IMG/VR virus record: IMGVR_UViG_3300020171_000031
Coordinates: 1 to 59,359 of that record
Origin: a virus
Length of the DNA stretch: 59,359 nucleotides
Direction: 5' to 3' (one strand)
The position numbers and the translations under genes are program-made. A model generated the notes under the pieces. The model was given only the letters and a program-made list of their open reading frames with translations. It had not been told where the DNA came from and did no database searches. Of this stretch, positions 6,662 to 59,359 are shown one piece after another; position 1 is the stretch's first letter; every line of letters starts with the position of its first letter.

Positions 6662-7429
6662 CTATACGGTGACGTACGGGAGGGCGAACCCGATGAGGTG
6701 CCCCATGACGGCCAATGCCACCTGCTTGGTGTCCGTCGGCGTCTGGGCGAGGATCTTGAGCTGAGGCGCTATCGCCCACAGCTCCACCCACGCGTCCACC
6801 CAGTAGCCCCCGGGCAGGGCCGGGGTGATGCGCTGGAGCTGTATGACTGCTGACGTTGCGGCTTTGGCCAGCACCACGTCGGCGAAGTCGTCGTAGGGGG
6901 CGCCCTGTCGCACGTCGTTCTCGTCGGATATCTGCGTGTACAGATGCACCCGGAATGTGGTCTGCAGATTGCCGTCGTTCACTACCTGTCCCTGGGTTGC
7001 GATGGTGGCCATGTCGTTTCCTCCTGGTGGTGTTACTACCTCGACTGGGAACTGCGTTATGGTGCCCATGATGTACTGCTGAATCAGCGTCACGTCGGCC
7101 TGCGTGACAACGCCGTCGCCGTCAACATCCGCTCGCAGCAGCACATCCACCGTCATACCCATCTGGTCCAGAACTTGCTGCTCGGTGAAGGGGCCGTACT
7201 GGATGTCACCCGTCTCATCGAACCTTATCCAGTAAATGAAACAGGCGTTCTCTACCCAGTAGCTATAGCCGGTGATTCTGATACCGTAGCCCGCGAAGTA
7301 GACTTGGTCCCACCTACGTTCGCCAACGGCTACTGGCGGATACAGCACGTTGAAGTCGGCGATGCGCTGCGCTAGCAGCACGTCGCCCATGTCAATCCAG
7401 CCGTCGCTATTTACGTCACCATAGTACAT
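6662..7429 (-). CDS. Dockerin protein with an inserted GYF-like domain
   Basis: 255 residues; ATG 7429 follows TAGGAGGCCAGC. Two dockerin calcium-binding repeats are visible: residues 2-26 (YYGDVNSDGWIDMGDVLLAQ) and 97-127 (LLRADVDGDGVVTQADVTLI). Between them, residues 60-92 carry a GYF-type segment (YWIRFDETGDIQYGPFTEQQ). Known dockerins have only a short linker here. The region after residue 140 is a separate soluble domain and is preceded by an internal SD and ATG at 7012, so a shorter product may be made. Dockerins bind cohesins; no cohesin was recognised in this element. Confidence 0.8.
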   Translation of the reverse strand: MYYGDVNSDGWIDMGDVLLAQRIADFNVLYPPVAVGERRWDQVYFAGYGIRITGYSYWVENACFIYWIRFDETGDIQYGPFTEQQVLDQMGMTVDVLLRADVDGDGVVTQADVTLIQQYIMGTITQFPVEVVTPPGGNDMATIATQGQVVNDGNLQTTFRVHLYTQISDENDVRQGAPYDDFADVVLAKAATSAVIQLQRITPALPGGYWVDAWVELWAIAPQLKILAQTPTDTKQVALAVMGHLIGFALPYVTV

Positions 7430-17536: not shown

Positions 17537-18965
17537 CCGTCTACCACCGCACTCTATCGACGCCGAGGAGGCCGTCCTCGGCTCGCTCCTCATAGACAGC
17601 GACGCCATCCTCAAGGTGGCCCCTTTCCTGAAGCCGGACGACTTCTACCGCGACAGGAACCGCTACTGCTACGAGGCGTGCATCTCCCTCGCGAATCGCA
17701 ACGAGGCCCTCAATCAGGTGACTGTGGCCCACGAGCTGGACCTGAAGGGACGACTGGACGAGCTGGGCGGCCCCGCCTACCTGAGCCACCTGGTATCCAT
17801 CATTCCGACCCCTCTCCACGCGGAGCACTATGGCCGGATCGTCGCGAAGTGCGCCGGCCTGCGCCGGCTTATCCAGGCGGCTGGCGAGATAGTCGGTATA
17901 GGCTACGAGGGGGCGCCTACTCTGGACGAGGCGTTCACCAAGGCGGAGGATGTGCTGTTCGCCGTCCGGCCGCCGCGGACCCGGCACGATTTCCGCCCGC
18001 TGCGCCAACTGCTGGATGAGTGGCTGGAAGAGCGCGATACGACCGAGGCGTTCTCGAAATCCGTCCCGCTGGCGACGGGCTATGAATCGCTGGACATGCT
18101 GCTCGGAGGCCTCCACGCTTCAGACCTGTTCATACTGGCTGGCCGTCCCGGCTTCGGCAAGTCCGCGCTGAGCCTGAACATCGGGAGGTACGTGGCGGGG
18201 GCGCAGCGGCCGGTCGCCCTGTTCAGCCTGGAGATGGGGGCGGACCAGTTGACCGTGCGCCTGCTGGCGTCCGAAGCGCGGGTGGACTCGCACAGGCTTC
18301 GGCTGGGCTTGCTGACCGAGAAGGAGGAACGGCGGATATTGGACGCCGTGGGGGCCCTCTCGGAGTTGCCCATCTGGATAGACGACTCCCCGCTCCTCAC
18401 CATCGCGGAGATGCGGAGCAAGGCACGGCGGCTGCACCAGGAGCACCCGCTGGGCCTCATCGTGGTGGACTACCTGCAACTGGTGGACGCGGGCGGCCGC
18501 TCTCACGGAGACCGCGTGGGGGAGATGAGCGAGGTGAGCAAGGCGCTCAAGGCGCTGGCCCGCGAGCTGGAGGTGGTGCTAATCGGCGTGTCCCAGTTGT
18601 CCAGAGCGGTGGAGGGGCGGCCTGGTCACCGCCCCCAGCTCTCCGACCTGCGGGAGAGCGGCTCGATAGAGCAGGATGCCGATGTGGTCGGCATGCTCTT
18701 CATGGAGGACCGCTATTGGACGCAAGAGGAGTGGGACTCGCACTTCCCCGCGAAGCCATACCCGCGAAATATCGCCGAGCTGATAGTGGCCAAGCATCGC
18801 CACGGCCCCACCGGGGCGGTGCACCTGTACTTCAACCGGGAGTACACCACTTTCGAGAACCTGCCGGACCAGGAAACTGCGGGCGGCGAGGCGGTCAACA
18901 GCGCTACCGGTGAGATAGGACAACCACGCTTGCCGATGCCGGACGCCACGGCAGGCAATGAGTGA
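17526..18965 (+). CDS. dnaB: Replicative DNA helicase, DnaB family
   Basis: 479 residues from ATG 17526 (MYTDRLPPHSIDAEEAVLGS), overlapping the loader stop by 11 nt. It has the DnaB N-terminal domain, a linker, and the RecA-like C-terminal domain with Walker A (ILAGRPGFGKSALSL), Walker B-type LIVVDYLQLV and SDLRESGSIEQDAD. Length is normal for the family. It unwinds DNA ahead of the replisome. Confidence 0.96.
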   Translation: MYTDRLPPHSIDAEEAVLGSLLIDSDAILKVAPFLKPDDFYRDRNRYCYEACISLANRNEALNQVTVAHELDLKGRLDELGGPAYLSHLVSIIPTPLHAEHYGRIVAKCAGLRRLIQAAGEIVGIGYEGAPTLDEAFTKAEDVLFAVRPPRTRHDFRPLRQLLDEWLEERDTTEAFSKSVPLATGYESLDMLLGGLHASDLFILAGRPGFGKSALSLNIGRYVAGAQRPVALFSLEMGADQLTVRLLASEARVDSHRLRLGLLTEKEERRILDAVGALSELPIWIDDSPLLTIAEMRSKARRLHQEHPLGLIVVDYLQLVDAGGRSHGDRVGEMSEVSKALKALARELEVVLIGVSQLSRAVEGRPGHRPQLSDLRESGSIEQDADVVGMLFMEDRYWTQEEWDSHFPAKPYPRNIAELIVAKHRHGPTGAVHLYFNREYTTFENLPDQETAGGEAVNSATGEIGQPRLPMPDATAGNE

Positions 18966-19189
18966 TAACCGCGCCGGCCGGGAGAGGCTGCTGGCATTGC
19001 GAGGGCGTCCCGGTCGAGTGGGTTCAAGCGCCGGCCGGAAGGGTGGGGCTCTGCCTGGAGTGCGTGCTGCGCTGGTTCCCCCAGTGGACCGTCCACGAGT
19101 GGGAGATTCGGCACGCGCCGGAGGCGGACCACCTGGGAGTTCGTTTGGCAAGGCATGCGCGTCCAAATGGCGCAAGGAAGGTAGTATGA
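18962..19189 (+). CDS. Small zinc-binding protein, 75 aa
   Basis: GTG 18962 overlaps the DnaB stop by 4 nt and the stop overlaps the next ATG by 4 nt. Two knuckles, CWHC (residue 10) and CLEC (31), then a region with WEIRHAPEADHLG. One of several tiny zinc proteins along the early arm; role unknown. Confidence 0.68.
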   Translation: MITAPAGRGCWHCEGVPVEWVQAPAGRVGLCLECVLRWFPQWTVHEWEIRHAPEADHLGVRLARHARPNGARKVV

Positions 19190-20292
19190 GAGTAGCTATC
19201 GTCAATTCCAGCCGCGTTTACAACCTGGCCGTGGAGAAGATAGCGCAGTACCATCGGCTGTGTGGAGACGAGGTCGCGGTCTCGCGGGGCATCGTAGGGA
19301 AGACGGGCGAGCCGCGGCAGCGCAAACACGGCCATCGCCACCCGGGTAGCTATGACCTGTTCGGCCTGGACGCCGAGCGGGCCTACTTCTCCGCCATCTT
19401 TACCTGGGACCTGCCCTCCCTGGTGGAGCAGGCCAGTCTGGCGAACGAAAGGGGAGTGGAGGTGGAGGTGGGAGGCCCCGCCGTCACGATTATGCGCGAG
19501 TGGGTGATGGACCGCCTCCCGTGGGCCAAGCTGCGCATCGGCCTGGACGACCGCTTTGAGTCGGTCCCGGGGCCGTACAAGTTGACCTTCACGAGTAGGG
19601 GCTGTCCGCACACGTGCCCCTGGTGCGTCGTGCCCGAGTTGGAGGGGCAGCCTAACTTGCCGCCGTGGTTCGTGCCGGCGCCCATTGTGGGAGACAACAA
19701 CATTCTCGCCACTCCTTGGGAACACCAGGTCCGGGCGGTCGAGACACTTTCCCAAGGGGCGACCATCGCGGGCGTTTCCTACCCGCCACCTAGGCGCGTG
19801 GATATCAACAGCGGCTTCGACGCGCGGTTCTTTGCGGCCCGTCCCAACGAGGTGTATCAGCTCTACTCGCAGCTACCCCTGCTGTTCTGGCGCTTGGCGT
19901 TCGACTCCATGCCGGTGGAGCGGGAAGTGGAGGAGAGCATCCGGTTTCTCCGCGCTGCCTCGCCCCAGATTACCCACCGGCAGGTCATCGTGTACGTCCT
20001 GTACGGGTTCAACGATATGCCCGAAGAGGCGCTGTACCGGGCGCAGAAGGTGATTGAGTGGGGCGCTAGCCCGTACCTGATGCGATTTTTGCCCCTTAAC
20101 AGGCCCGACCGGACGTTCGTGAACGTGGCGCGGGGGTGGACCGCGGAGCTGCTGCTGCGGTTCCAACTCTATTTTAATTCTCCGCATGTGTGGCGGAGCA
20201 CCAGGTGGGAGGAGTTCAGCGTAGCAAAGCACGCAGAGATGAAAAGGGAGGTGCAATCCTTTGCCTCCACTCCGCTCATGGAATCTGATTAG
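19186..20292 (+). CDS. Radical SAM enzyme
   Basis: 368 residues from ATG 19186, downstream of CGCAAGGAAGG. The iron-sulfur motif CPHTCPWC (CxxxCxxC, about residue 138) is preceded by KLTFTSRG. The N-terminal 100 residues (MRVAIVNSSRVYNLAVEKIA) resemble a B12-binding-like Rossmann region, though the DxHxxG signature is not evident. A later IRFLRAASP strand/helix repeat fits the TIM-like barrel. The substrate is unknown; DNA base or nucleotide modification is possible because of the replication neighbourhood (inference). Confidence 0.85.
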   Translation: MRVAIVNSSRVYNLAVEKIAQYHRLCGDEVAVSRGIVGKTGEPRQRKHGHRHPGSYDLFGLDAERAYFSAIFTWDLPSLVEQASLANERGVEVEVGGPAVTIMREWVMDRLPWAKLRIGLDDRFESVPGPYKLTFTSRGCPHTCPWCVVPELEGQPNLPPWFVPAPIVGDNNILATPWEHQVRAVETLSQGATIAGVSYPPPRRVDINSGFDARFFAARPNEVYQLYSQLPLLFWRLAFDSMPVEREVEESIRFLRAASPQITHRQVIVYVLYGFNDMPEEALYRAQKVIEWGASPYLMRFLPLNRPDRTFVNVARGWTAELLLRFQLYFNSPHVWRSTRWEEFSVAKHAEMKREVQSFASTPLMESD

Positions 20293-31115: not shown

Positions 31116-31137
31116 ATGCAAACGAAAGGAGATGTGC

Positions 31138-32178
31138 ATGACAGCAGGCAAACCCTGTCCCGTGGCAGGCTGCGGGTACGCGGCGCTGTCGCAGGGCGAC
31201 CTGGACGGGCACACCGCCTACGCTCACCGTGAGCGGAAGCCGACCCCCTCCGGCAACCCTGTGGCCGCGCCTCCAGCTCCGCAGCGGGCCGACAAGCCGG
31301 AGTGGCATCCGGCGCTGTACGTCCCGCAACGCGACCCGCACTTTTGGGTTGCGGACGAAACCACCCGCTTGTTCTTCGTCCTGCAAATGCGGACGGAGGC
31401 GGGCCATCAGGAGAACGTGCTTCTCCGTGGCCCCAAGGGGACGGGCAAGACGACGCTGCCGCGGATATACGCGGCGGCGTGCAAGCGCCCGTTCTTCTCC
31501 ATGGACTGCGGAGCCGTCTCGGAGCTCTCCGACTGGTGGGGTGACAAGGAGCTGGAGGGCGGGCGCACCTTCACTGTGAGAGCAGCCCTGGTGGACGCCC
31601 TGGAGACAGAGAACTGTGTCGTCCTGCTGGACGAGGCCAACAGGACGCATCCCGAGAACCTGAACGCCCTATTCGGCCTCCTGGACCACAGGCGAGCCGC
31701 GTGGGTCCCGCTGCTCCGGCGGGAGGTACGCGTGGCGCGGGGCGTGACGTTCTTCACGACGCTCAACGAGGGGACGGAGTACGCGGGCACCAACCCCGTG
31801 GACTCGGCCCTGCGGGACAGGTTCTCCTACACCATCGTGACCACCTGGCCGCCGGAGCTTGAGGAGGCGGCCATCCTGGTGGGCCGAACGGGGGTGGACC
31901 AGGATATGGCGGCGAAGTTGGTACGGTTCGCCAACACCGTCCGCCGCACCCCCGCCATCCACTACGCCCTGTCCACCAGGGCCCTCTTGGCCACGTGCCA
32001 GTGTCTCCAGGAGGGCATGGCGTTGCAGGAGGCGGCGCTGTTCACTGTCGTCAACGCGGCGCCCGAGGATGTGGACCGAAAACTCCTTCTGCAAGCGCTT
32101 CAGATGCACGTCGGGAAGATTGACGAGGCGTGGGTAGTCTCCGTGACGGGCGAAGCCGTCCAGGGGGCGACGCCATGA
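31138..32178 (+). CDS. MoxR-type AAA+ ATPase with N-terminal C2H2 finger
   Basis: 346 residues; ATG 31138 is preferred to 31132, which lies in the SD. Residues 6-28 form a C2H2 finger (CPVAGCGYAAL ... HTAYAH). The AAA+ core has Walker A RGPKGTGKTTLP, Walker B CVVLLDEANR and sensor TTLNEGTEYAGT. MoxR-type ATPases remodel proteins together with VWA partners, and the next gene (overlap 4 nt) is such a partner. The small-RNA complement covers its SD. Confidence 0.9.
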   Translation: MTAGKPCPVAGCGYAALSQGDLDGHTAYAHRERKPTPSGNPVAAPPAPQRADKPEWHPALYVPQRDPHFWVADETTRLFFVLQMRTEAGHQENVLLRGPKGTGKTTLPRIYAAACKRPFFSMDCGAVSELSDWWGDKELEGGRTFTVRAALVDALETENCVVLLDEANRTHPENLNALFGLLDHRRAAWVPLLRREVRVARGVTFFTTLNEGTEYAGTNPVDSALRDRFSYTIVTTWPPELEEAAILVGRTGVDQDMAAKLVRFANTVRRTPAIHYALSTRALLATCQCLQEGMALQEAALFTVVNAAPEDVDRKLLLQALQMHVGKIDEAWVVSVTGEAVQGATP

Positions 32179-34487
32179 CGCAGCGAAACCTCTCGGACTT
32201 CTGGCGCTTTGACAAGTCGGACGACCTGGTGATGGAGATGGTGAGCGTTCTCCAGGGGGCCGACAACCTCATCGGGCTGATGTCGGGCGACATGCAGCGG
32301 GAGAAGCTCATGGAGAAGCGGATGCGCGTCCGCTGGTGCCCAGGGGATGTGAGCGCGGTCTCTCCGGAGCGGGAGGTCGTGTTCCTCAACTACCGCCACC
32401 TGCGGGGCGTGCCGACGCCCTTCCCGGGCGAGGCGGTGGACAAGGTGATAGGCGACGCGGCCCATGAGGGGGGCCACGTCCTGTGGACGGGCAACACGCC
32501 CGACTGGGCGGCGGAGTTGCACCGCCGCTACATGATGCGGGGGAAGAACGGAGGCCGTGGAAAGTTCGCCATCTGGTACGGGCGCAACCGTCAGGGGATG
32601 GTGGCGTGGTTCAAGGACTGCGCCAACATCCTGGAGGACGCCTACGTGGACAAGAAGGTGAGCAACCGATGGCCCGTCCTGGGCGCCTATATCCAGCAGG
32701 CGAAGGCGAATAACCCCGCGGACCTTCGGGTAGATTGGGATGCCATCGCGGCGAAACCGAAGCCGTCCATGCTGGAGATGCGGAATCTCTGGTGTCACCT
32801 GGCGCTGTACGGCGGCGATGTCCCGGCGCAACTCTCCAGGAGTGTGCGGGATGGGCTCGACTTCCTGCTCGACTCCACGCTGCGCGTTCTCAAGCTGGAA
32901 AGTGTCGGGCTTCGCCTGGACGTGGCGTTCGAGTGCCTAGTGTACATGGTCAAGGCGTACACGGAGGACGAGCGGGCGCTTCCGAAGAAGCCGCCCGCGC
33001 CCCAGGCTCCAGCAGCTGAGTTGGCCGAAGGCGAGGGGGAGGGAGGGCAAGGCGACCCCACTCCTGGTGAGACGGGCCTGCCCGACCTGGAGAAGAAGCC
33101 CAAGGCCACCCCAAAGGGTGAGAAGGAGGACGAGGGTGAAAAGCAAGACGGCGAGGACGCCGATGGAGATTCGGACGCTGACGCAGCGGACGGTGCAGGC
33201 GATAAGGAGGCTGGACAGGCTCCTGCCACCGATGCCGAGCCCGACGAAGAGGACGAGAACGCCGACCCGGAAGCCGGCCAGGATGGCGAGGGCAAAGGCG
33301 GAGACGCAGACGGCGCTGGCGAAAATGGAGAGGATAGTGCGGAGGCTGGCAGCGGCTCCGCCGACGCCGACGGAGAGGGCAAGGCTGGAAAGAAAGACAC
33401 GGGCGGCGAAGCGGGAGAAGGCGGCGGCAAGGGCGGCGAGGAGGGTGACGGGGAAGATGGGGGTGAGGAAGCCGACGTCACGCCGTCCTTAAAGCTGGCG
33501 CCCAAGCAGCCCGACGAGGACAAGGACGAGTACACTCCGGGCGGCACCAACGCGGCCAGCGATACGCTGGAGCACCAGCGGGATATGCAGTCCCAGGTCA
33601 TCACGGTGGACGACCCGCACCTCCTGGAACTGGTGGAGAAGGCGATGGCCGAGCAGCTGGAACTGCTCACCAAGGAGGTCGCCGACATCCTGGCGCAGAA
33701 GCCGGAGGAGGTGGCTACCAGAGCGCGCCGCGCCTCCTATGACGCCCAGGCTCTGGCGGAGATTCGCCTGCGCATCGGACAGCAGGCGGCGAATCTCCGC
33801 AGGGTGTTCGAGCAGGAGATGCGGGCTAACTCGCGCTTCCTGCGCGGGCAGCTCAGAGGGCGGCTGGACACCCGCCGCCTGGCCAGGGTGGGAGCGGGCG
33901 ACTACAACGTGCGGATGCGGCGTGAGGTTATCGGGAAGCCCGACCTGGCCCTGGGCCTCCTGATGGATGTGAGTGGGTCCATGATGGGCTACATGCCCGT
34001 AGTGTGGGAGACGGCGGGCCTGTTCGCGGAGGCGCTGGTGGGGCGGCCTGGGATTAACTTCCTGGGTTGCACCTACACCACCGAGTATTCCAATGGGCAA
34101 AACGGGACTTGCCTGACGCGCATCGCCGACAGGGGTCTGGGGCGGCTGTGCGTCGGGGATGTGGTGCAGGGTGGTGGCACTCCCTCCGGGCAGGCTATCG
34201 CCGCCATGCGGGTGCTGGTGGGGCGGATGCCCGAGCGGGAGAAGGTGATAATCCACTTCACGGATGGCCAGCCCGACCGGGAGGAGCCAGTCCGGCGGGC
34301 GGTGGAGGCGTGTCGCCAGGCGGGCATTGGGGTGGTGTGCATCACGGTGCTGGATGGGGGCTGGCGCGGCGCCACCTGGCAGCAGCAGCACCTGGACTTG
34401 CAGTACGGGCGCGGAAACTGGGGACTAATCGGCAAGGTGGAGGACCTGCCCAAGGCGGTGGCGGCCCTCCTCAAGAGTCTAGCGTAG
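32175..34487 (+). CDS. VWA-domain CobT-like partner of the MoxR ATPase
   Basis: 770 residues from ATG 32175 (MTQRNLSDFWRFDKSDDLVM). N-terminal helical/zincin-like part with AAHEGGHVLWTG, an HExxH site near residue 98. Residues 280-440 are Asp/Glu/Gly-rich and disordered. A coiled region (about 465-560) then leads to a VWA domain with the MIDAS motif LMDVSGSMMGY (about 595) and a later Thr/Asp pair (GTPSGQ, FTDGQ). Family: CobT/CbbO-like cofactors. Possible combined peptidase-remodelling function is inferred. Confidence 0.88.
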   Translation: MTQRNLSDFWRFDKSDDLVMEMVSVLQGADNLIGLMSGDMQREKLMEKRMRVRWCPGDVSAVSPEREVVFLNYRHLRGVPTPFPGEAVDKVIGDAAHEGGHVLWTGNTPDWAAELHRRYMMRGKNGGRGKFAIWYGRNRQGMVAWFKDCANILEDAYVDKKVSNRWPVLGAYIQQAKANNPADLRVDWDAIAAKPKPSMLEMRNLWCHLALYGGDVPAQLSRSVRDGLDFLLDSTLRVLKLESVGLRLDVAFECLVYMVKAYTEDERALPKKPPAPQAPAAELAEGEGEGGQGDPTPGETGLPDLEKKPKATPKGEKEDEGEKQDGEDADGDSDADAADGAGDKEAGQAPATDAEPDEEDENADPEAGQDGEGKGGDADGAGENGEDSAEAGSGSADADGEGKAGKKDTGGEAGEGGGKGGEEGDGEDGGEEADVTPSLKLAPKQPDEDKDEYTPGGTNAASDTLEHQRDMQSQVITVDDPHLLELVEKAMAEQLELLTKEVADILAQKPEEVATRARRASYDAQALAEIRLRIGQQAANLRRVFEQEMRANSRFLRGQLRGRLDTRRLARVGAGDYNVRMRREVIGKPDLALGLLMDVSGSMMGYMPVVWETAGLFAEALVGRPGINFLGCTYTTEYSNGQNGTCLTRIADRGLGRLCVGDVVQGGGTPSGQAIAAMRVLVGRMPEREKVIIHFTDGQPDREEPVRRAVEACRQAGIGVVCITVLDGGWRGATWQQQHLDLQYGRGNWGLIGKVEDLPKAVAALLKSLA

Positions 34488-34963: not shown

Positions 34964-35761
34964 ATGAGCAGACCATTGTGGAAAGGCACGGTCAGTTTTG
35001 GCCTTGTCAACATCCCCGTGGCGCTCTATGGAGCGACGGACGAGCTGAAGGTCAGCTTCCGCACGCTCCACAAGGGGTGCGCTGCGCCCATCGCGCAGCA
35101 GCACACCTGCACCGCCTGTAAGCAGGTGGTGGAGAGGGCGGATGAGGTCAAGGGGTATGAGGTCGAGGAAGGCCGCTTCGTCGTCATGGAAGAGGCGGAC
35201 TTCGCGGGCCTCCCCGTAGCGTCCCAGACGAGCATCAAGGTGGTGGGCTTCGTGGACTCATTCCAGGTGGACCCGCGCCAGCTCGATGAGCCGTACTTCA
35301 TGGGCATCGGGCAGACCAAGCGGGGGAAGGTGAACGTCGTGGACCAGGGAGCGGCCAAGGGGTTTGCCCTCCTGCACGCCGCGATGCAGAAGCTGGACAA
35401 GCTGGCGGTGGCCAAGGTGACGATGCGCCAGCGGGAGAAGCTGGTGGTGTTCCGTCCCTATGGCGACGTGATGCTTCTCCAGACGTTGCGATGGCCCGAC
35501 GAGCTTCGGTCGGCGGAGGCGCCTGCTCTGCCGGAGGTCTCGGACAAGGAGTTGGCGCTGGCCGAGTCGCTGGTGAACGCCATCGGCGGGTGTGACCTGA
35601 CTAAGTTCAGCGACGAGTACCGGGAGGCGCTGGAGAAGGTCATCCAGGCAAAGGCGGCGGGCCAGCCCGTCGTGAGCGCGGTGCCGACGGAGGCCGAGGC
35701 CACGGTGGACGTGATGGGCGGCCTGGAGGCCAGCCTGGCGGCGCTGCGAGGAGCGGTATGA
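34964..35761 (+). CDS. ku: Ku DNA end-binding protein
   Basis: 265 residues, near the usual bacterial Ku length. MSRPLWKGTVSFGLVNIPVA is the typical opening; CTACKQVVERADEVKGYEVE and the later EPYFMG and KLVVFRPYGDVMLLQTLRWP strands match the beta-barrel core. The C-terminus (VDVMGGLEASLAALRGAV) resembles the family's end-binding tail. Ku holds DNA ends for non-homologous end joining. The ligase gene follows 500 bases on. Confidence 0.92.
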   Translation: MSRPLWKGTVSFGLVNIPVALYGATDELKVSFRTLHKGCAAPIAQQHTCTACKQVVERADEVKGYEVEEGRFVVMEEADFAGLPVASQTSIKVVGFVDSFQVDPRQLDEPYFMGIGQTKRGKVNVVDQGAAKGFALLHAAMQKLDKLAVAKVTMRQREKLVVFRPYGDVMLLQTLRWPDELRSAEAPALPEVSDKELALAESLVNAIGGCDLTKFSDEYREALEKVIQAKAAGQPVVSAVPTEAEATVDVMGGLEASLAALRGAV

Positions 35762-36048: not shown

Positions 36049-36263
36049 GCGAGGAGCGGCGCATCGGGATGAGAAAGGTGGGCCCGTGGGTCTATTGTGG
36101 CCACGGGCCGGAGGGTCTCTTGTGGGCGGCGCCCTCGGACATCGGGAACCTCGTCATCCTCCGATGGGTAAAACTGGGCTGGTGGCCGCTCATCCGGGTT
36201 CACGAGACTTGGGTGGAGCGGGACAGGCTCCTGAATGCCATTGAGAAGGGGGTGCTCAAGTGA
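36045..36263 (+). CDS. Small hypothetical protein, 72 aa
   Basis: ATG 36045. MSEERRIGMRKVGPWVYCGH followed by a WVKLGWWPLIRVHETWVERD segment. Overlaps both neighbours by 4 nt, so it belongs to the Ku-ligase operon. No family known. Confidence 0.65.
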   Translation: MSEERRIGMRKVGPWVYCGHGPEGLLWAAPSDIGNLVILRWVKLGWWPLIRVHETWVERDRLLNAIEKGVLK

Positions 36264-37207
36264 AGCTGGAACCGATGCTGGCAGAGCCTGGGGTCAAGCC
36301 CCGTGTGGACCCGTCGCTCCTGCACGAGGTCAAGTACGACGGCGTGCGCACGCTCTTCGTCGTGGAGGACGGGCACGTCACCTTCTGGTCCAGGGGAGGG
36401 CACGACATCACCGCAGCGTTCCCCGAGCTGGCGGAGGTGCCGTCCCACCTCAAGATGCAGAACGGCGTTGGGGATGGGGAGATAGTAGTGGGCAACGGGA
36501 CGATGGCCGACTTCAACGCCATCTCGCGTCGCGTCCACGTGCAGGACCCCTTGAAGATTCGACTGCGCTCGCGGGAGACGCCGACTAACCTCCGGGTGTT
36601 CGACCTGCCCGTGTATGAGCGGGATGACCTCACGGTGAATGGCGTGCGGCTGTCGCTAATGCAGCGCCGCGAGTTGCTTGCGGCAACCATCCGGGGTGGT
36701 CTGCCGAATGGCGTGGTGTGCATGGGCGACGCTGGGGAGTTCGGCGACGGCGCGGCGTTCTTCCGCTCCTGCCTGGAGCAGGGCTACGAGGGCATGATGG
36801 TGAAGAGCAAGGCGGGCCTCTACTACCCCGGGAAGCGACACCCTGACTGGGGCAAGAGCAAGCTGGAGCAGACAGCCGACTTCCAGGTGGTGGGCTACAC
36901 CTGGGGTGAGGGATGGAGGGGAGAGCGCCAACTCTTCGGTGCGCTGGTGCTGTCCACAGGCACACCAGGCAATCTCCAGTATTGCGGCGAGGTGGGTGGC
37001 GGCTTTACCAATGAGGAGCTGGAGACCATCGGGGCCCACCTGCGCACGATTGCCGTCTCGCAATGCCCGATGGTCAAGCTGGAAAAGGTAGAGGGGCTGT
37101 GCTCGTGGGTCGCGCCAGGGCTGGTGGTCGAGGTTAAGTTCATGGACTGGACGAGTGACCGGAAGCTCCGCTTTCCAAGATTCAAGGCAGTCCGGAGGAT
37201 GCGATGA
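36260..37207 (+). CDS. ATP-dependent DNA ligase
   Basis: 315 residues. Motif I EVKYDGVR has the adenylated Lys at residue 25. Motif III-like region near 105-115, EGMMVKSKAG (motif IV) and WGKSKLEQ (motif V) follow. An OB-fold C-terminal domain ends the protein. This is the size of LigD-type stand-alone ligases. Together with Ku, it can seal joined ends; polymerase and nuclease domains of LigD are absent. Confidence 0.92.
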   Translation: MKLEPMLAEPGVKPRVDPSLLHEVKYDGVRTLFVVEDGHVTFWSRGGHDITAAFPELAEVPSHLKMQNGVGDGEIVVGNGTMADFNAISRRVHVQDPLKIRLRSRETPTNLRVFDLPVYERDDLTVNGVRLSLMQRRELLAATIRGGLPNGVVCMGDAGEFGDGAAFFRSCLEQGYEGMMVKSKAGLYYPGKRHPDWGKSKLEQTADFQVVGYTWGEGWRGERQLFGALVLSTGTPGNLQYCGEVGGGFTNEELETIGAHLRTIAVSQCPMVKLEKVEGLCSWVAPGLVVEVKFMDWTSDRKLRFPRFKAVRRMR

Positions 37208-39327: not shown

Positions 39328-39425
39328 GCAGCGGAGATCAGTTTCTGAAGGAGGTGAGGCTGGACATTAGCTTGCGGGTCCCCATGCAATGGATGAAGAA
39401 TGCCTGAAAGAAGGAGATGGGAGAG

Positions 39426-39845
39426 ATGTCAGACACCAAACGGTTGTTCGTAATCAGCGGCAAGGAGTACCCGGACCCCGATGCGGCACTGACCGTCGAG
39501 GACGTGAAGAGCCATTACGCCGCCTTCTTCCCGGAGCTCGCGACGGCGACGGCCAAGGAGGAGGTGCGGCCCGACGGCGTCACGGTCGTGACGTTTGCGA
39601 GACAGGTAGGCACCAAGGGCGCGCTGGCGCCAGTGGTGCCGGCCACGTATCTGCCAGGCCGGCACGTATCTGCGGACCTCTCGGACTACAACCCCGGCGA
39701 CGAAGGCACGCGGAGGTGCTTGAAGTGCCTGGCCACGCAGGACTTCCGGGTCGGGCCCTATGGAGGCTTGCACCTCGGCCTTTGGAAGAGGGAGGGCAAG
39801 CCCGCTCCCAGGTGCCCGAAGGCGGCGAAGGGCGGCAGGTCCTGA
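39426..39845 (+). CDS. Ubiquitin-like protein, PRTRC protein C type, with extra zinc domain
   Basis: 139 residues. Residues 6-65 (RLFVISGKEYPDPDAALTVE ... PELATATAKEEV ... FARQVGTKG) match the PRTRC protein C Ubl family. In that family the protein normally ends near the GTKG. Here about 75 residues follow with CLKCLA and a later Cys (CPKAAKG). This unusual tail might be removed by the JAMM peptidase encoded downstream, exposing a glycine (inference). SD AAGGAG precedes ATG 39426. Confidence 0.72.
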   Translation: MSDTKRLFVISGKEYPDPDAALTVEDVKSHYAAFFPELATATAKEEVRPDGVTVVTFARQVGTKGALAPVVPATYLPGRHVSADLSDYNPGDEGTRRCLKCLATQDFRVGPYGGLHLGLWKREGKPAPRCPKAAKGGRS

Positions 39846-39873
39846 TGCCGATGTTCGTCCAGTGGGGCACTTG

Positions 39874-40086
39874 ATGGAGATGCGTGGTCTTGTAGAGCGG
39901 CTCGCCACCGTGCCGGAGGTGCGGCTGCGTATCATCCTGCTGGCCCATGCAGTCTGGCATGATGGCGAGCTGGACGAGAAGGCGCTGGACAAGATGCAAG
40001 CCGACTTCAACCTGGCCGTCGCGGAGCTGGAGGAGTACACACGCGGCACCGCGGTCACGGTCGCCCATCTGCGAGACCTCCTGTGA
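39874..40086 (+). CDS. Small helical protein in the Ubl operon, 70 aa
   Basis: ATG 39874 (MEMRGLVERLATVPEVRLRI). All-helical, with KALDKMQADFNLAVAELEEY. No strong SD; stop overlaps the next GTG. It may be an accessory of the Ubl module (inference). Function unknown. Confidence 0.62.
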   Translation: MEMRGLVERLATVPEVRLRIILLAHAVWHDGELDEKALDKMQADFNLAVAELEEYTRGTAVTVAHLRDLL

Positions 40087-40874
40087 GGCTGGCGGAACTG
40101 GCCGGCAAGCTGCGGATGGGGCCGCAGTCGCTACACGGTCTGCGTCGCGCACTGGAGAATGCGGAGGTCGTGTCGGACTTCCGCCGGCTGGTGCACGACT
40201 TCACGCCCCAGGCGGAGGCCCGCATACTGGCGGGAGACGAGCAGGAGCAGGTGCAGGCGTTCCTGCGGGAGTTTGGCCGGCAGACGGGCATCCCACTGAA
40301 CGACGACATCGAGGAGATTGAGCAGCTGCTCTTCTGTATGCCCATCATAGTGCGCGGCTGGTCCTGGGATGACTACATGGAGTGGTCCCACCACGACGTG
40401 CCGGACCAGGTGCTGCTCGCGCTGGTCCAGAGCCCCTTTATGGACGAGGACAATGCCGCGCTGGTAGAGAACCTGGCCCGGCTGGTGCGGGGTGAGGCGT
40501 ATGAGGCGTGGCGTCTGGCAACCCCAACCGGGTGGGAGCCGGCGGAGTTGCATGAGCGGCTGGATGGCACCAGGTGGGAAGGGGTGGCGCGCTTCGCCGA
40601 TTGGCTCTGGAGGGAGACGCAGACGGTCTATCTGGACATGAACTACGAGGAGATGAATAACGACCTGGAGTGGAGTCAGGCGAACGTGCGGTGGCTGCGG
40701 GAGCAGGCCGTGACGGCGGGCCAGATAGAGGACCGGATTGCCGAGGTGTACCACCTCATCGAGCAGAACCCGACGGAGGCGGTGCTGGATATGGTGCGGC
40801 TGATGGGTCCGCGACCCGGTCCGCAACTGCCGCTACCGTTGCTGGAGGTGTTCCGTGACGAACAAGAGAGCTAA
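40083..40874 (+). CDS. Hypothetical protein in the Ubl operon, 263 aa
   Basis: GTG 40083 overlaps its upstream neighbour by 4 nt. Mainly helical, with an acidic centre (NDDIEEIEQLLFCMPIIVRG). It lies between the Ubl and E2-like genes, where PRTRC clusters have their own large unknown proteins; I cannot align it to them by eye. A substrate adaptor role is speculative. Confidence 0.7.
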   Translation: MRLAELAGKLRMGPQSLHGLRRALENAEVVSDFRRLVHDFTPQAEARILAGDEQEQVQAFLREFGRQTGIPLNDDIEEIEQLLFCMPIIVRGWSWDDYMEWSHHDVPDQVLLALVQSPFMDEDNAALVENLARLVRGEAYEAWRLATPTGWEPAELHERLDGTRWEGVARFADWLWRETQTVYLDMNYEEMNNDLEWSQANVRWLREQAVTAGQIEDRIAEVYHLIEQNPTEAVLDMVRLMGPRPGPQLPLPLLEVFRDEQES

Positions 40875-41718
40875 AGGCGTCTGCCCCACTTGTGGACGTG
40901 ATGTGGCTTTGCGGTTGGATGGCACTCTGATGGTGCACCAGCGGTTCTTGGGGACCTCCCTGCCTGATGAGCGAGGTTTCGCGACGCAGACATCACCTGA
41001 TTGCAATGGAGTAGGTCAGTTACCGGTAACGGACCCACCCGCAAAGGCTGGGTTTCACTGGGCGCTGCCACGGGGGCTGGACGTGGAGCCGGATGTGCTC
41101 CAGCTGCGGTTGGACTTCTACCTTGACACCATCCTGCTGACCGACATGCGCGGAGGGGTCAGCACCGTGAAGCCGGTCAGCGCCCGCGACATCGTGCAGG
41201 CGCTGACGCGGGACGTGGCGGTCCAGACGGGCGTGTTGCCGCCCGACGCTCTCTGGTGGCGCAACGGGCCCACCGGAGCCACGGTGGCCTTCTGGCAGCC
41301 GCCCCAGGTGCGCATCCTGGCGTTGCTAGAGCACGCGGGACAGGAGCCGCTGCGGTGCGAGGTGCCGCTGCCCGGCATGGTGTTCGCCTGCCAGCCGGCC
41401 CGTGCCCCGTGGGTCTGGGCCGCAAAGCACCGCCCGACAGGGCCAGAGGCCCTGCTGTACCACGCCCCCCTGTTCAACGTGTTCCGCGATGGCCGTACCT
41501 GCCCAGGCACACAGAGGTATTCGCCAGCGGTGGAGCAAATCCCGTTTGAGTTCTGGGTATCGTTTTTCACGGGTGAGGCGGACCACACGGAGCGGAGCCG
41601 GGCATACCCCAAGAGTCTGAAGGCGCTCTGGCAGAGCCTGGAGGGGGCGAAGCGTTACCCGCCGGATGACCTGGTGCAGTGGGGGGCTGTAAAATCGGCA
41701 ATGGAGGTGGCGCGATGA
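40855..41718 (+). CDS. E2-like protein, PRTRC protein B type
   Basis: 287 residues from GTG 40855. Residues 10-50 carry a zinc-type CPTCGRDVAL. The remainder matches PRTRC protein B: GFHWALPRGL, then ALLYHAPLFNVFRDGRTCPG with the presumed catalytic Cys at 216. This family is predicted to act as an E2 ubiquitin-conjugating enzyme. The extra N-terminal finger is atypical. Overlaps its upstream neighbour by 20 nt and the JAMM gene by 4 nt. Confidence 0.78.
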   Translation: MTNKRAKGVCPTCGRDVALRLDGTLMVHQRFLGTSLPDERGFATQTSPDCNGVGQLPVTDPPAKAGFHWALPRGLDVEPDVLQLRLDFYLDTILLTDMRGGVSTVKPVSARDIVQALTRDVAVQTGVLPPDALWWRNGPTGATVAFWQPPQVRILALLEHAGQEPLRCEVPLPGMVFACQPARAPWVWAAKHRPTGPEALLYHAPLFNVFRDGRTCPGTQRYSPAVEQIPFEFWVSFFTGEADHTERSRAYPKSLKALWQSLEGAKRYPPDDLVQWGAVKSAMEVAR

Positions 41719-42341
41719 TGGAGGCAAGACCGGACTTCCACTATGAGACGCACGAGGAGTTTTGGAAACGTACTCATCCAGACCCAAAGGTTCGGCGCCC
41801 GGTCGCCTACATGGTGGAGGGCCGGCGCACGGCGCCCGGGCTTGGCTACAGCTACGTGTTGGCTGGCAACGGCCTGTGGATTGAGGCGACGGGCCCCCAC
41901 CTGGCCGTTCGGTTGGAGGTGGCCGAGGCGGAGGTCAGAGGTCTATCGAGCCTAACCCAAGAGGTACGGCTCCTTCACGGGCCAATTCCGAAGGCGCTAC
42001 ACGACCTCCTGGTAGACGTGCTTCTGGCTAATCCGCGAGAGGAGCACTACGTCGCCATCCTGTGGCGCGACGGGCGCTACCAGCTCACCGTCCCAGACCA
42101 GCTTGCGCAGGTCGCCTCCATGACGTACCAGAGGCCAGACCCAGCGGAGCTGGTGTTGGAGGCGCACTCACACCCTCCCGGTGTGGTGGCGCGGTTCTCG
42201 CTGGTGGATGACCGCGATGAGCAGGGGTTGGGCCTGTACGGGGTGTTGGGCATGGATGAGGCAGGCTGGACACTCGCGCTCCGCGCGGGGGTGTACGGCT
42301 ACTACGGTGACGTGGACGTGGCGGAGATCTTCGACGGGTAG
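41715..42341 (+). CDS. JAMM/JAB isopeptidase-like protein, PRTRC protein A type
   Basis: 208 residues from ATG 41715. The JAMM zinc motif is visible: LVLEAHSHPPGVVARFSLVD followed by DRDEQGLGLYGVLGM. The spacing HSH to Ser is 8 instead of 7 residues. This matches PRTRC protein A, with FS..DDRDEQG in place. JAMM peptidases cut isopeptide bonds or process Ubl C-termini. Next to E1, E2 and Ubl genes, this completes the set. Confidence 0.8.
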   Translation: MMEARPDFHYETHEEFWKRTHPDPKVRRPVAYMVEGRRTAPGLGYSYVLAGNGLWIEATGPHLAVRLEVAEAEVRGLSSLTQEVRLLHGPIPKALHDLLVDVLLANPREEHYVAILWRDGRYQLTVPDQLAQVASMTYQRPDPAELVLEAHSHPPGVVARFSLVDDRDEQGLGLYGVLGMDEAGWTLALRAGVYGYYGDVDVAEIFDG

Positions 42342-42620
42342 GCGAAGGGGTGGTTTGGGCCGGGTACGCTGGCGGATGGCTCGGTACGGGCAGGGAAGGC
42401 TAGGAGGGCGAAGGGTAAGAGCTGGAGAGGGGCGGATAGGCTGGCGAAGCGACAGGGGTGGAGCGGCCATGAAGGCGGAGGGTTCGGGATGGGTGGGCTG
42501 CGGGCGGCAAGGGCGGCGATAGGCCAAGAAAGGCGCGGTAGGGCGCGGCGAGGACGGGCTGGCGTAAGGAGAGGGGAAGGGTGGGACGGTTGGCGAAGGG
42601 TGGGGAGGAACCGACAGAAT
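42342..42620. repeat. G-rich degenerate repeat array, locus 2
   Basis: Between the JAMM and RAMP-like genes there is about 280 noncoding bases, purine-rich on the plus strand. GCTGGCG-type units occur near 42367, 42447, 42557 and 42586, the same unit as at 27693-28020. No gene is evident inside. Confidence 0.58.
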
Positions 42621-42641
42621 AAACAGAAGAAGGAGAAAGAA

Positions 42642-43388
42642 GTGGCAGACGCGAAGGAAGTCAAGGACCTCAAGTTCACGAGGTATCCGGTGACCCTCAC
42701 GATGCACGGGCCCCTGCACGCCACGACGGCGAGCAACCCGGAGAGCATCGCGTACCAGCTACGGAATCAGCCCAGCGAACCCGACCTGGCGGCGCGGCTG
42801 GCGGCAGGGGAGCCGCTCAAGCCGATGGATGCGCTCCAGAAGCAGGTCGAGCAGGAGGCGGGCGCTGCCGAACCACCCCCGGAGCCGATGGCGGTGTTCC
42901 GCCGCGACGACCTGAAGCGGCCGTTTATCCACGACAACTTCATTCGGGGCCACCTGCGGGACGCAGGTGAGGCCCTGTCACGGGCCCTGGGCGTGTGGGG
43001 GCTCCAGCAGCTCATCACCCGGACGGTGTTCGTCCGGCCCGAGCGCATCTACCTCCCGGTGGGCTGCACGGTAGAGGTGGAGACGTGGCCGGCGCACTCC
43101 GACGTGTACCGCATGGGGAGAATCTCCAGCATCCGGCGCGCCGAGTTTGCGCTGGGCGTCACGCTCGAGTTCCGCCTCTACGTGGTGAACGACCCCCGGT
43201 GGGCAGGCGCGAACGGCCGGAAGATTCTGACGTCCGTTCTCCAGTACGGCGCCATCCACGGCATTGGAGGTGGCCGTGGTCGCGGCATGGGGCGCTACAC
43301 GTTCATGCTCGGGGAGGCCATGGAGGTGGAACCCGCCCAGGTGTGGAGCGATATGCAGATTGGCGAGGGTCCATGCCATACCGCATAG
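42642..43388 (+). CDS. RAMP-like (Cas5/Cas6/Cas7-type fold) orphan protein
   Basis: 248 residues from GTG 42642 after AAGAAGGAGAAAGAA. Two features recall CRISPR RAMP proteins: FIHDNFIRGHLRDAGEALSR (central) and a C-terminal glycine-rich loop YGAIHGIGGGRGRGMGRYTF. No CRISPR array or Cas1/Cas3 is present. It lies within the Ubl operon, between JAMM and E1. An RNA-binding or structural RAMP relative is proposed, but no catalytic His is visible. Confidence 0.6.
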   Translation: MADAKEVKDLKFTRYPVTLTMHGPLHATTASNPESIAYQLRNQPSEPDLAARLAAGEPLKPMDALQKQVEQEAGAAEPPPEPMAVFRRDDLKRPFIHDNFIRGHLRDAGEALSRALGVWGLQQLITRTVFVRPERIYLPVGCTVEVETWPAHSDVYRMGRISSIRRAEFALGVTLEFRLYVVNDPRWAGANGRKILTSVLQYGAIHGIGGGRGRGMGRYTFMLGEAMEVEPAQVWSDMQIGEGPCHTA

Positions 43389-44164
43389 TCCCGCCTCTTA
43401 CGGCACGTAAACCCCTACTCCTCATCGCGGGCTGTGGCGGCACTGGGAATTGGGTGGCGGAGGGCATCGCCAGGTGGCTGCCCGCTGACTGGCGCCTCGT
43501 CCTGGTGGACCCCGACGTGGTGGAGGAGCACAACCTGCGGCGCCAAGGGTTCCTAAAGAAGGAGGTGGGGAGTTACAAAGCCGAGGTGCTGGCCAGGCGG
43601 CTGGCGGACGGGACCGGCCGGGCGGTGGGATTCGCCGTCGTGCCCATCCGCACCGTGGTGCAGCAGGACCATGAGTTACGCCTCGTTGTGGGTTGCGTGG
43701 ACAACGCGGCGGCCAGGCGGGAGGTCCACGAGGGTCTCCCGCTCGGGGCCTGGTGGCTGGACGCTGGCAACGGCCGCAACTCGGGCCAGGTCCTGCTGGG
43801 GAACGTCCGCGATGCCAGGTCGCTGGAAGGAGGGTTCGCACCCACCGGGACCTGTGACAGGGTGCCCCTGCCCACTCTCCAGATGCCCGAACTGCTGGTG
43901 CCATCTCAGGAGGAGCTGGAACCACTGCCGCCGGACTGCGCGGAGGCGGTGCGAGACGAGCGGCAGAGCCCCGTGGTGAACCAGGCGGTCGCAGGGCTGG
44001 CGCTCAATATGGTATGGCGGTTCCTGCGGGGCGAGTTGGACTGGATGGCGGCGTATCTGGACCTTGATATGGGGACGCTGCGCCACGTCCCGTGTGAACC
44101 CGCCACGGTGGCCAGGCTGTGCGGCGTCAAGACGCGGACCCTACTAGCTAGGGGCGTCCGGTGA
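43373..44164 (+). CDS. E1/ThiF-like Ubl-activating enzyme
   Basis: 263 residues from ATG 43373. Rossmann motif LLIAGCGGTGNWVAEGIARW near residue 16, then VDPDVVEEHNLRRQGFLKKE (E1 adenylation signature with Asp and Arg), and VGCVDNAAARREVHEG. The later DERQSPVVNQAVAGLALNMV is typical of PRTRC-associated ThiF. It should adenylate the Ubl C-terminus. A catalytic Cys for thioester transfer may be one of several later Cys. Confidence 0.87.
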   Translation: MPYRIVPPLTARKPLLLIAGCGGTGNWVAEGIARWLPADWRLVLVDPDVVEEHNLRRQGFLKKEVGSYKAEVLARRLADGTGRAVGFAVVPIRTVVQQDHELRLVVGCVDNAAARREVHEGLPLGAWWLDAGNGRNSGQVLLGNVRDARSLEGGFAPTGTCDRVPLPTLQMPELLVPSQEELEPLPPDCAEAVRDERQSPVVNQAVAGLALNMVWRFLRGELDWMAAYLDLDMGTLRHVPCEPATVARLCGVKTRTLLARGVR

Positions 44165-52771: not shown

Positions 52772-53080
52772 TTACCCCTTTCTCGTGACCACGACGATGC
52801 CGACCGCTGCGGCCCCCACTCCGAGGAGCGGCCCCCACCGGCGCCAGAACGAGGGGGCGGGCAGGATCAACTCCACCGGGAACTGCGTGATGGCACCCAG
52901 GACGTACTGCTCAATAAGCTGCACGTCAGCCATGGTGACCAGGCCGTCGCCATCCACGTCGGCCCGCTTGCGCTGGTCAGCCGTCGGGACAGAAAGCCCC
53001 AGGGCGAACCTCTCGGCGAGGATCGCGTCCCCCATGTCCACCACACCATCAGCGTTCGGGTCTCCATAGTAAACAGCCAT
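52772..53080 (-). CDS. Membrane-anchored dockerin protein, 102 aa
   Basis: Two dockerin calcium repeats: YYGDPNADGVVDMGDAILAE and RADVDGDGLVTMADVQLIEQ. The C-terminal 25 residues (GPLLGVGAAAVGIVVVTRKG) form a membrane anchor. It matches the dockerin parts of the 6662-7429 protein but lacks the GYF insert. It may bind cohesins on partner or host proteins (inference). Confidence 0.82.
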   Translation of the reverse strand: MAVYYGDPNADGVVDMGDAILAERFALGLSVPTADQRKRADVDGDGLVTMADVQLIEQYVLGAITQFPVELILPAPSFWRRWGPLLGVGAAAVGIVVVTRKG

Positions 53081-54847: not shown

Positions 54848-56779
54848 CTACACCCCTGTTGCCTGGATATAATAGCTGCCCACAATAGCACCCGCTGCAC
54901 CGCCTGTTGCTACCATCACCAGCACGTCGTTGGTGCCATTCTTGGCATCCATGTAAATCGGCTTGCCCAGACCCGCGCCAGCGTCCGCAACGTTCATTGA
55001 GTCGTAGACCACAGGAGCAGTATTCAAGTTGACCGCGGCGCCCGCGAACATCGTGGCTCCTATCGTGACGGCCCTCACATCATCTATCAAGATTGTGCAG
55101 ACAGCGGGGTTGGCATGGTACTGCAAGCCGATGCTGACAATGGCATCCCGGGTGGCTCCGGCGTTGACAAAGGGGACCACCACGAGAGTCCATTGACCAG
55201 CTATCAGGGCGGGCACAGCAAGGGTTTCGGCGGGAGCAACACAGTTAGCGTTTTCGCTTATCAGCATCCGAAGGTCTGCCGCTACCGTAGCAACGCTGGA
55301 TTTTATCTTGAACAACAGGTGGGTATAGCCAGATAGGTCTTGAGCCGCCCGCGCCTCAGTGGCAAGGATTTCGTCAGCTACCACGCCCGCAGCAACCGCT
55401 AGTTGGGCGCTACCCGTGCCTCTTTCAAAGTCCGTGGTGTTGAGTGTACTGGTCACTTCTGGCAGCACCGACTCGTTCCAGGCATCTTCACAGTCCTCGA
55501 CCACTACGCTAGTGGTCAAACCCATCGGCCCTGTGGCGGCAGCACCACCTGCTGTAGTGATTCTAACGGTGGCGCTGACAAGAGCCGCCTGATGCTCTGG
55601 GTTCTGCCACGCTATCACGGCACCGTTCTGTACGACCTGGGCCAAGGCGCCACCATCGGTGCGTGCTTCTGCCTGTGCAAGGTAGCCAGAGTTATCTCTA
55701 ACTGTAGTGTGTTTTCCAGCCAGAGGAGAGTATATTCCAGCAGTGCCATTGCCGCTGACATCATTCCAAGCAATCCGATTGTAGTCACTTATGCCGTCTT
55801 CAAGCATTCCGTATTGCTGAGTCTTTGGAGTTTGGGTATCGTGAAATCTGCCGCCCAGAACAACATTTCTCAAAGACCCGAGAAGTCTGAGGCCCGCTCC
55901 GAATTGCCAGACTCCACCAGTAGACCTTCCATTGTTGAAAACACGTAATCCTGAGAAGACGCTGTCAGTGTGTTCGGATAGCAAAAGTCCATTATGGTTG
56001 TTGTGGTCTGCCACACAAGCAACTAGACTTACATTGCTACCACCATATATAAAGAATCCACATTTTGTATTCCAATCCGCTCGGCATCCCTTCAAGATAA
56101 GGTCGCCAGGCTGTCTCACCCAGATACCTGCTTCTCCCGCACAATTACTAGCTACAACATTGTCAAGCCAACTATCAACTATCCCCCATAGATAAGCACC
56201 TTCAGCACCAACTGTTCTCGCATAGATGTCCTGCAGCCACCATCCTGCGCCTCTGCCCCCAGAATATTCACCATAAATCGCTTCCCCTACAATACCATTT
56301 AGGGAAAGTTGTCGAATCGTTAGCCAATCCGTTCCGACGGCTTGAATCGCTCTCCCGAGAGCGTAAGTGCCGTGACCGCCACGAATCTTGAAATTATGCA
56401 AAACTACCCCGTCTGTATTATCCAAGTTCAGAATGGGCGTGAAGTTCGCTACCTGCACCAAGACAGTGCCTCCCGCAGTATCAGGAGGTTCGCTTGACCG
56501 TCCTTTATCTACCCCTTCCACAGTGAGATAGTTTGCGCCAACAATGGTGGCAGCAAGGTTGAATTCCCCTACCGATAATTGAAGCTTACCACCTGCAGGC
56601 AGTGCAGCAATCGCCGCCTGTATCTCCACGTTGTCGGTGGTGCCGTCAGCAACTCCCAGTAGGGGGCCATAGCGAGCACGGAGAATCCGTCCCTGTCGTA
56701 TAGCAGCAGCGGGGGCGCCCACTGACAGCACATGTGCTGTCCCCGGCAGAAGTCCTGTCCGTCTCCAGAAGTCGCCCAT
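54848..56779 (-). CDS. Right-handed beta-helix spike or depolymerase-like protein
   Basis: 643 residues. Many repeated short strands (IRQLSLNGIVGEAIYGEYSG, then ASNCAGEAGIWVRQ and NVSLVACVADHNNHNGLLLS) form the pectate-lyase-like parallel beta-helix. The C-terminal 200 residues are beta sandwich. DNA of 55.6-56.6 kb is clearly more A/T-rich than flanking genes, suggesting a recent acquisition. Host-polysaccharide binding is likely. Confidence 0.8.
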   Translation of the reverse strand: MGDFWRRTGLLPGTAHVLSVGAPAAAIRQGRILRARYGPLLGVADGTTDNVEIQAAIAALPAGGKLQLSVGEFNLAATIVGANYLTVEGVDKGRSSEPPDTAGGTVLVQVANFTPILNLDNTDGVVLHNFKIRGGHGTYALGRAIQAVGTDWLTIRQLSLNGIVGEAIYGEYSGGRGAGWWLQDIYARTVGAEGAYLWGIVDSWLDNVVASNCAGEAGIWVRQPGDLILKGCRADWNTKCGFFIYGGSNVSLVACVADHNNHNGLLLSEHTDSVFSGLRVFNNGRSTGGVWQFGAGLRLLGSLRNVVLGGRFHDTQTPKTQQYGMLEDGISDYNRIAWNDVSGNGTAGIYSPLAGKHTTVRDNSGYLAQAEARTDGGALAQVVQNGAVIAWQNPEHQAALVSATVRITTAGGAAATGPMGLTTSVVVEDCEDAWNESVLPEVTSTLNTTDFERGTGSAQLAVAAGVVADEILATEARAAQDLSGYTHLLFKIKSSVATVAADLRMLISENANCVAPAETLAVPALIAGQWTLVVVPFVNAGATRDAIVSIGLQYHANPAVCTILIDDVRAVTIGATMFAGAAVNLNTAPVVYDSMNVADAGAGLGKPIYMDAKNGTNDVLVMVATGGAAGAIVGSYYIQATGV

Positions 56780-59233: not shown

Positions 59234-59359
59234 CTATTCCTCCGCCAATCTCTGCCACTGGTAGTTCTTAACGGCACCCGCTGTTTGCTCAAGCGTGACG
59301 CGCACCCCAAACCTATTGGGCTGCATCTCGACGCAGATGGCCTTGACGCCATCCAGCAG
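59234..59359 (-). CDS. C-terminal part of the junction-spanning structural gene
   Basis: The same protein whose start is at 952. Here its last 42 codons lie from 59359 to the TAG at 59234, covering the terminal repeat and six extra codons (ending RLAEE). Confidence 0.8.
   Translation of the reverse strand: MLDGVKAICVEMQPNRFGVRVTLEQTAGAVKNYQWQRLAEE
59251..59359. repeat. Terminal direct repeat, right copy
   Basis: Identical to bases 1-109. See the left copy for interpretation. Confidence 0.93.

Follow-up and report, generated by a model that had tools for sequence, protein, structure and literature searches.

Does a DNA element classed as viral encode a complete pathway for attaching a ubiquitin-like protein (Ubl), and what might such a pathway be used for? 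The question is raised by IMG/VR virus record IMGVR_UViG_3300020171_000031, which was analysed over positions 1-59,359 (59,359 nucleotides, hereafter the window). From its sequence, an original prediction had proposed that a complete set of Ubl, E2-like protein, JAMM peptidase and ThiF/E1-like enzyme of the PRTRC type lies in one operon. Four family matches, together with conserved residues, bear out the completeness of this set. The locus is probably a mobile PRTRC-like Ubl-conjugation cassette, belonging to a branch formed by modules of cyanobacterial and Chloroflexota plasmids and of phages.

The four genes were found intact at the positions first proposed, all on the + strand; the Ubl reading frame also holds, in frame, the ATG at 39426 that had been taken as its start. 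The earlier gene list had overlooked three further open reading frames (ORFs), coding for a protein at the position of PRTRC protein F (F', 40083-40874), for 70 residues, and for a RAMP-like protein (42642-43388). The locus is organised as follows:

39417-39845, + strand: Ubl precursor (PRTRC C / Prok_Ub), 142 aa, matching TIGR03738 and PF14454
39874-40086, + strand: ORF of 70 aa, found weakly by an iterated profile
40083-40874, + strand: F-position protein F', 263 aa, placed by a profile of plasmid relatives and by its position between C and B
40855-41718, + strand: E2-like protein (PRTRC B / Prok-E2_D), 287 aa, matching TIGR03737 and PF14460, with motif PLFNVFRDGRTCPG containing Cys216
41715-42341, + strand: JAMM/JAB peptidase (PRTRC A), 208 aa, matching TIGR03735, with E110...HSH-x8-S-x2-D
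42342-42641, + strand: G-rich and purine-skewed spacer of 300 bases, 5' of the RAMP-like gene
42642-43388, + strand: RAMP-like protein, 248 aa, matching PF03787 at about its cut-off, with C-terminal loop GIGGGRGRGMGRYTF
43373-44164, + strand: ThiF/E1-like adenylyltransferase, 263 aa, matching TIGR03736, with GCGGTG at 20-25 and Cys189

All module frames are open and display a coding-type GC bias. By ORF coordinates, successive genes overlap by 4 to 20 bases from the 70-aa ORF through the JAMM gene, and the RAMP-like gene and E1 share 16 bases. These overlaps fit a single transcript.

When searched with the PRTRC A, B, C and ThiF profiles, each of the four proteins matched its expected family. 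The Ubl matched TIGR03738 (1.5e-11, 44.3 bits for a cut-off of 45.95) and PF14454 (3.2e-13, above gathering), the E2-like protein TIGR03737 (2.1e-16) and PF14460 (6.9e-20, above gathering), JAMM TIGR03735 (8e-10) and E1 TIGR03736 (1.3e-37, 129.4 bits for a cut-off of 144.75). The four matches are far beyond chance. The expected active-site residues are also retained. In E1, a comparison of ten sequences showed no variation in the G-x-G-G-x-G loop, D46, N54, R57, K69, D110 and Cys189; this loop and the Cys189 motif recur in every one of the 93 E1s scanned. In the E2-like protein, N208, G213, Cys216 and G218 are invariant in twelve compared sequences, Cys216 being also invariant in 47 relatives. 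The stretch PLFNVFRDGRTC of this protein appears to resemble the HPN...G-x-x-C active site of eukaryotic E2s; an extra N-terminal stretch contains CPTCG. JAMM keeps residues E110, H151, H153, S162 and D165. Compared with known structures, the E1 profile matches ThiF and ubiquitin E1 best, and Cap2, BubCD and BilD weakly. The E2-like protein gave a good predicted structure (pLDDT 80), which in a Foldseek search of viral models matched proteins of uncultured Caudovirales.

The original prediction also described the module as streamlined, without a protein F. Only the canonical F is absent: TIGR03742 has no match in the window, and the F-position is occupied by F'. Neither Pfam nor NCBIfam gave a match for the F' ORF. 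It was found, however, at 6.4e-4 by a profile made from seven plasmid F-position proteins with the window excluded, and at 3.9e-13 after viral relatives were added in one iteration (E-values for a database size set to 100,000). By these profile searches, F' belongs to an F-position family of the cyanobacterial, Chloroflexota and phage branch. Homology of F' to the canonical PRTRC F was rejected at the sensitivity used, with a profile comparison probability of 0.1%. The 70-aa ORF was the window's top ORF with an iterated profile, at an E-value of only 0.0045; this weak match suggests that it is probably the equivalent of the relatives' small helical protein or Ubl tail.

The window Ubl indicates how the pathway might begin. 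Its beta-grasp domain ends with VGTKG at G68 and is followed by a 74-residue tail with Cys residues (RCLKC ... RCPK). The Ubls of relatives either end at, or a few residues past, a conserved KG, or extend with a tail, and that of the nearest relative (locus L021) terminates exactly at VGTKG. Judging from the relatives that end there, the KG glycine would also be the mature end in the window. A tail-less Ubl was found in 3 of 3 scorable modules lacking JAMM, and a tailed one in 65 of 79 with JAMM (Fisher p 0.008, uncorrected for kinship among loci). This co-occurrence fits JAMM as a processing protease, though the cases are few and come from related loci.

With its 74-residue tail, the window Ubl would likely have to be cleaved by JAMM as a first step, after G68 (VGTKG/A). 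E1 would then adenylate the Ubl glycine and hold the Ubl as a thioester on Cys189, from which it would be received by Cys216 of the E2-like protein and passed to a target lysine. F' and the small helical protein could act as partners or target adaptors in conjugation, and JAMM may also remove the tag from the target. The reaction steps are deduced from the families named above; which way the reaction runs, where the precursor is cut and what F' and the helical protein do are likewise inferred.

Such modules had been described in the original prediction as known mainly from plasmids. This holds for annotated records and papers. However, E1 relatives were found on at least 153 viral contigs; thus, the module is not special to the window element. 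A tblastn search with the window E1 gave 386 plasmid records. Those closest to the window belong to Chlorohelix (Chloroflexota) and cyanobacteria, and their loci hold the same gene set, mostly annotated as hypothetical proteins. As a single-sequence query against viral contigs, the window E1 gave no match; relatives were reached by the E1 alignment only, which returned the 153 IMG/VR contigs. Eighty of these were taken into a comparison of 93 loci, together with plasmid loci, two phage records and the window, component presence being called with one profile per component at a fixed threshold. The complete C-F-B-A-E1 order was present in 61 of the 93 loci, among them the majority of the 80 viral ones, and most others were without one part at this threshold; several viral loci run into a contig end, and absences there are not evidence of loss. 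Module genes in relatives usually overlap or nearly so, and a gap of 0.3-1.5 kb between A and E1 also occurs in other loci.

Relatives of the module occur in true tailed phages. Burkholderia phage BgVeeders33, the deposited genome of a cultured phage, holds C, F, B, A and E1, and 14 of 24 module-bearing IMG/VR records tested carry a terminase large subunit or portal on the same contig. The record of L021 (G002, IMGVR_UViG_3300014502_000014) has both (terminase 4.1e-172, portal 1.3e-117). Flanking ORFs were also clustered, but antisense module frames dominated the result, which served only to choose terminase and portal candidates. The E1 tree is divided by a split with 100% SH-aLRT. One side comprises the canonical PRTRC plasmids together with BgVeeders33 and related viral contigs; the window falls on the other, with many viral contigs and the plasmids of cyanobacteria and Chloroflexota. 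The window is sister to L021 (SH-aLRT 97) and sits on a long end branch; the tree was built by a quick method, with SH-aLRT supports only and midpoint rooting, and the composition of the window is unusual.

Among known systems, the closest in layout is the PRTRC system (TIGR03735-TIGR03738; plasmids such as pMOL28), which has the same order of Ubl, E2-like, JAMM and E1 genes and an F-position gene between C and B. The window differs from it by scores below cut-off, a separate E1 branch, a tailed Ubl, the apparent lack of ParB, D or E, and an F' unrelated by sequence to canonical F. Operon type 6d of Iyer, Burroughs and Aravind (2006) comprises a Ubl with a conserved C-terminal Gly, a largely helical protein, an E2-like protein with Cys, a JAB and an E1 (PMC1779556). 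The window operon has the same parts, the F-position protein occupying the putative helical slot; however, that survey covers bacterial genomes, whereas the window is virus-classed, its Ubl has a tail and a RAMP-like gene is inserted. The plasmid modules of cyanobacteria and Chloroflexota (L008, L010, L014, L015, L016, L019) share the E1 group, F' family and gene order of the window, but they are only 16-38% identical, lie on host plasmids and have no RAMP between A and E1. L021 has the order C-F'-B-A-E1 like the window and an E1 identity of 47%, but it displays a ParB directly before C, a tail-less Ubl, terminase and portal, and no RAMP. Finally, CBASS Cap2/Cap3, Bil and Bub share E1, E2-like and JAB parts with the window; their domain fusions and partners are different, whereas in the window Ubl, E2 and JAMM are separate proteins, as in type 6d.

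Several results weigh against assignment of the locus to a working conjugation cassette. None of the four module proteins reaches its NCBIfam curated cut-off, so that they have to be considered divergent members. In the window JAMM, His153 and Ser162 are separated by 8 residues, against 7 in the 85 other proteins (n=86), which makes its activity uncertain. The E2-like model gave no match at E <= 0.001 in a Foldseek search of the PDB; thus, support for an E2 fold comes from Pfam, the motif and a published prediction. The A-E1 pair is split by the RAMP-like gene. In addition, no conjugates were reported for any PRTRC module in the literature searched.

Some of these features would also be expected of a decayed or inactive passenger, intact by chance, with an altered JAMM and an operon split by the RAMP-like gene. 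The unique JAMM spacing, the insertion between A and E1 and the long E1 end branch are in line with this explanation. However, the open frames with their coding-type bias and the full retention of catalytic residues argue against it, as does the 0.3-1.5 kb found between A and E1 elsewhere, and we consider decay improbable. Still less probable is a functional role of the RAMP-like protein within the module, for instance as an RNA-guided or RNA-bound target selector, even though the 16-base overlap of its stop with the E1 start would allow joint translation. Its ORF matched PF03787 at 2.8e-4 (21.9 bits for a cut-off of 22.1; 23.1 bits in a second scan), and it has a glycine-rich C-terminal loop of the kind typical of RAMPs. 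A profile of the protein matched no solved structure, and its predicted model (pLDDT 41) was not used. A homologue with 78-86% identity lies on G001 (IMGVR_UViG_3300020171_000018), an 85.8-kb element related to the window at its end regions, in which tblastn found neither E1 nor any other module gene. The presence of the RAMP-like gene there without the module indicates that it is probably an insertion and not a core part. RAMPs were searched in 22 other module-bearing records and found only in W02, about 68 kb or more away from the module. A distant relative occurs in a phage-like contig of a Desulfofervidaceae metagenome-assembled genome, beside RecT and exonuclease genes, and relatives of that protein were found in phage records. 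Most likely, the RAMP-like gene is a phage gene in its own right, which here sits inside the module. The distant relatives, L102 3048-3695 and L109, lie on phage-like contigs near RecT/exonuclease and possibly represent a phage protein family. The G-rich, strand-skewed degenerate spacer 5' of the RAMP-like gene measures about 300 bases in the window and about 1000 bases in G001 (L002 7110-8100). The gene was also considered as a sign of a CRISPR system; this was not supported, no other CRISPR family being among the matches listed for window ORFs.

Other explanations concern the purpose of the chemistry. In a sulfur-carrier or small-molecule pathway, the ThiF-like E1 and the Ubl would deliver sulfur, with the E2-like Cys as a relay. 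ThiF enzymes are indeed the best non-PRTRC matches of E1, and the Ubl ends with one G, not GG. However, JAMM co-occurs throughout, as does an E2-like protein carrying PN-x4-G-x2-C, and the module has no cysteine desulfurase, rhodanese or biosynthetic gene; Iyer et al. argue likewise for operon type 6d (PMC1779556). This pathway is thus unlikely. A cassette for replicon maintenance or partition, as suggested by the PRTRC name, deserves more weight, although it is only a tentative possibility; the tag would then act on the element's own ParB or replication proteins. In canonical PRTRC plasmids, ParB opens the series ParB, E, C, F, B, A, ThiF. L021 has a ParB-like gene directly 5' of its Ubl, about twenty further viral loci have one close to the module, and the window module is near replication genes. 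On the other hand, no ParB-like gene was annotated in the cyanobacterial plasmid loci examined, and none was found in the window: all-ORF scans, one of which listed 25 of 56 NCBIfam families, gave no ParB family match, and a phmmer search of the window with four ParBs gave a best value of 0.72. For proteins D and E, the scan of the other 69 ORFs, with 25 of 56 NCBIfam families listed, likewise showed no match, though weak ones could escape it. The original prediction had not found ParB, D or E either, and on this point the family scans agree with it.

The window itself is likely of viral nature. Its description as a virus-like element agrees with the listing of the contig as viral in IMG/VR, but not with the search for terminase and portal families, which gave no match in the window. 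It encodes DnaB, a DnaC-like loader, RecT, RusA, an integrase and one virion structural family. An exact 109-bp direct terminal repeat (1-109 and 59251-59359) is identical at both ends of G001, which suggests circular genomes sharing this stretch or an assembly junction. A Radical SAM family protein directly follows DnaB (18958-20292). Ku (3.1e-39) adjoins an ATP-dependent DNA ligase (34964-35761 and 36260-37207), a possible end-joining pair. A CbbQ/MoxR-type AAA ATPase is followed by a VWA protein (31132-34487); AAA/VWA pairs were reported from jumbo phages (PMC7824862), and in Pseudanabaena an AAA-VWA-AAA set also lies upstream of the module. A conserved linkage with the AAA/VWA pair was nevertheless rejected, as none of the neighbour genes recurs near modules, a few widespread ones aside. 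Two ORFs (6662-7429 and 52772-53080, - strand) contain dockerin type I repeat-like sequences; the family scan gives Dockerin_1 in two window ORFs without naming them. A right-handed beta-helix / NosD-like protein on the - strand (54848-56779) is possibly of the tail-spike type.

In the window, the conjugation module is on the + strand together with the replication genes. Its most likely use is therefore early and intracellular, directed at the host or at a competing element; no evidence supports the suggestion that it may modify virion proteins. Related conjugation systems work in anti-phage defence (CBASS, PMC10097602), and an addiction-like or protective role was proposed for such operons by Iyer et al. 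(PMC1779556). Speculatively, phages might widely deploy 6d/PRTRC-like Ubl conjugation with a maturing JAMM for takeover, counter-defence or inter-element competition, a RAMP-like protein having been recruited to E1 in the window.

No description of PRTRC modules in phage genomes was found in a literature search, most subscription journals being outside its scope. The parts of the module are known; its branch, F', the tailed Ubl and the breadth of its occurrence in phage contigs appear to make it a variant undescribed so far. PRTRC-like modules have been listed since 2006, still without an assigned function. Intact, order-conserved modules in many phage genomes, one of them that of a cultured phage, provide a tractable setting for gene removal and for the study of phenotype and conjugates, and the split between tailed and tail-less Ubls, which matches the presence or absence of JAMM, offers a direct biochemical test. 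Such work would also bear on the movement of ubiquitin-like systems between plasmids and viruses.

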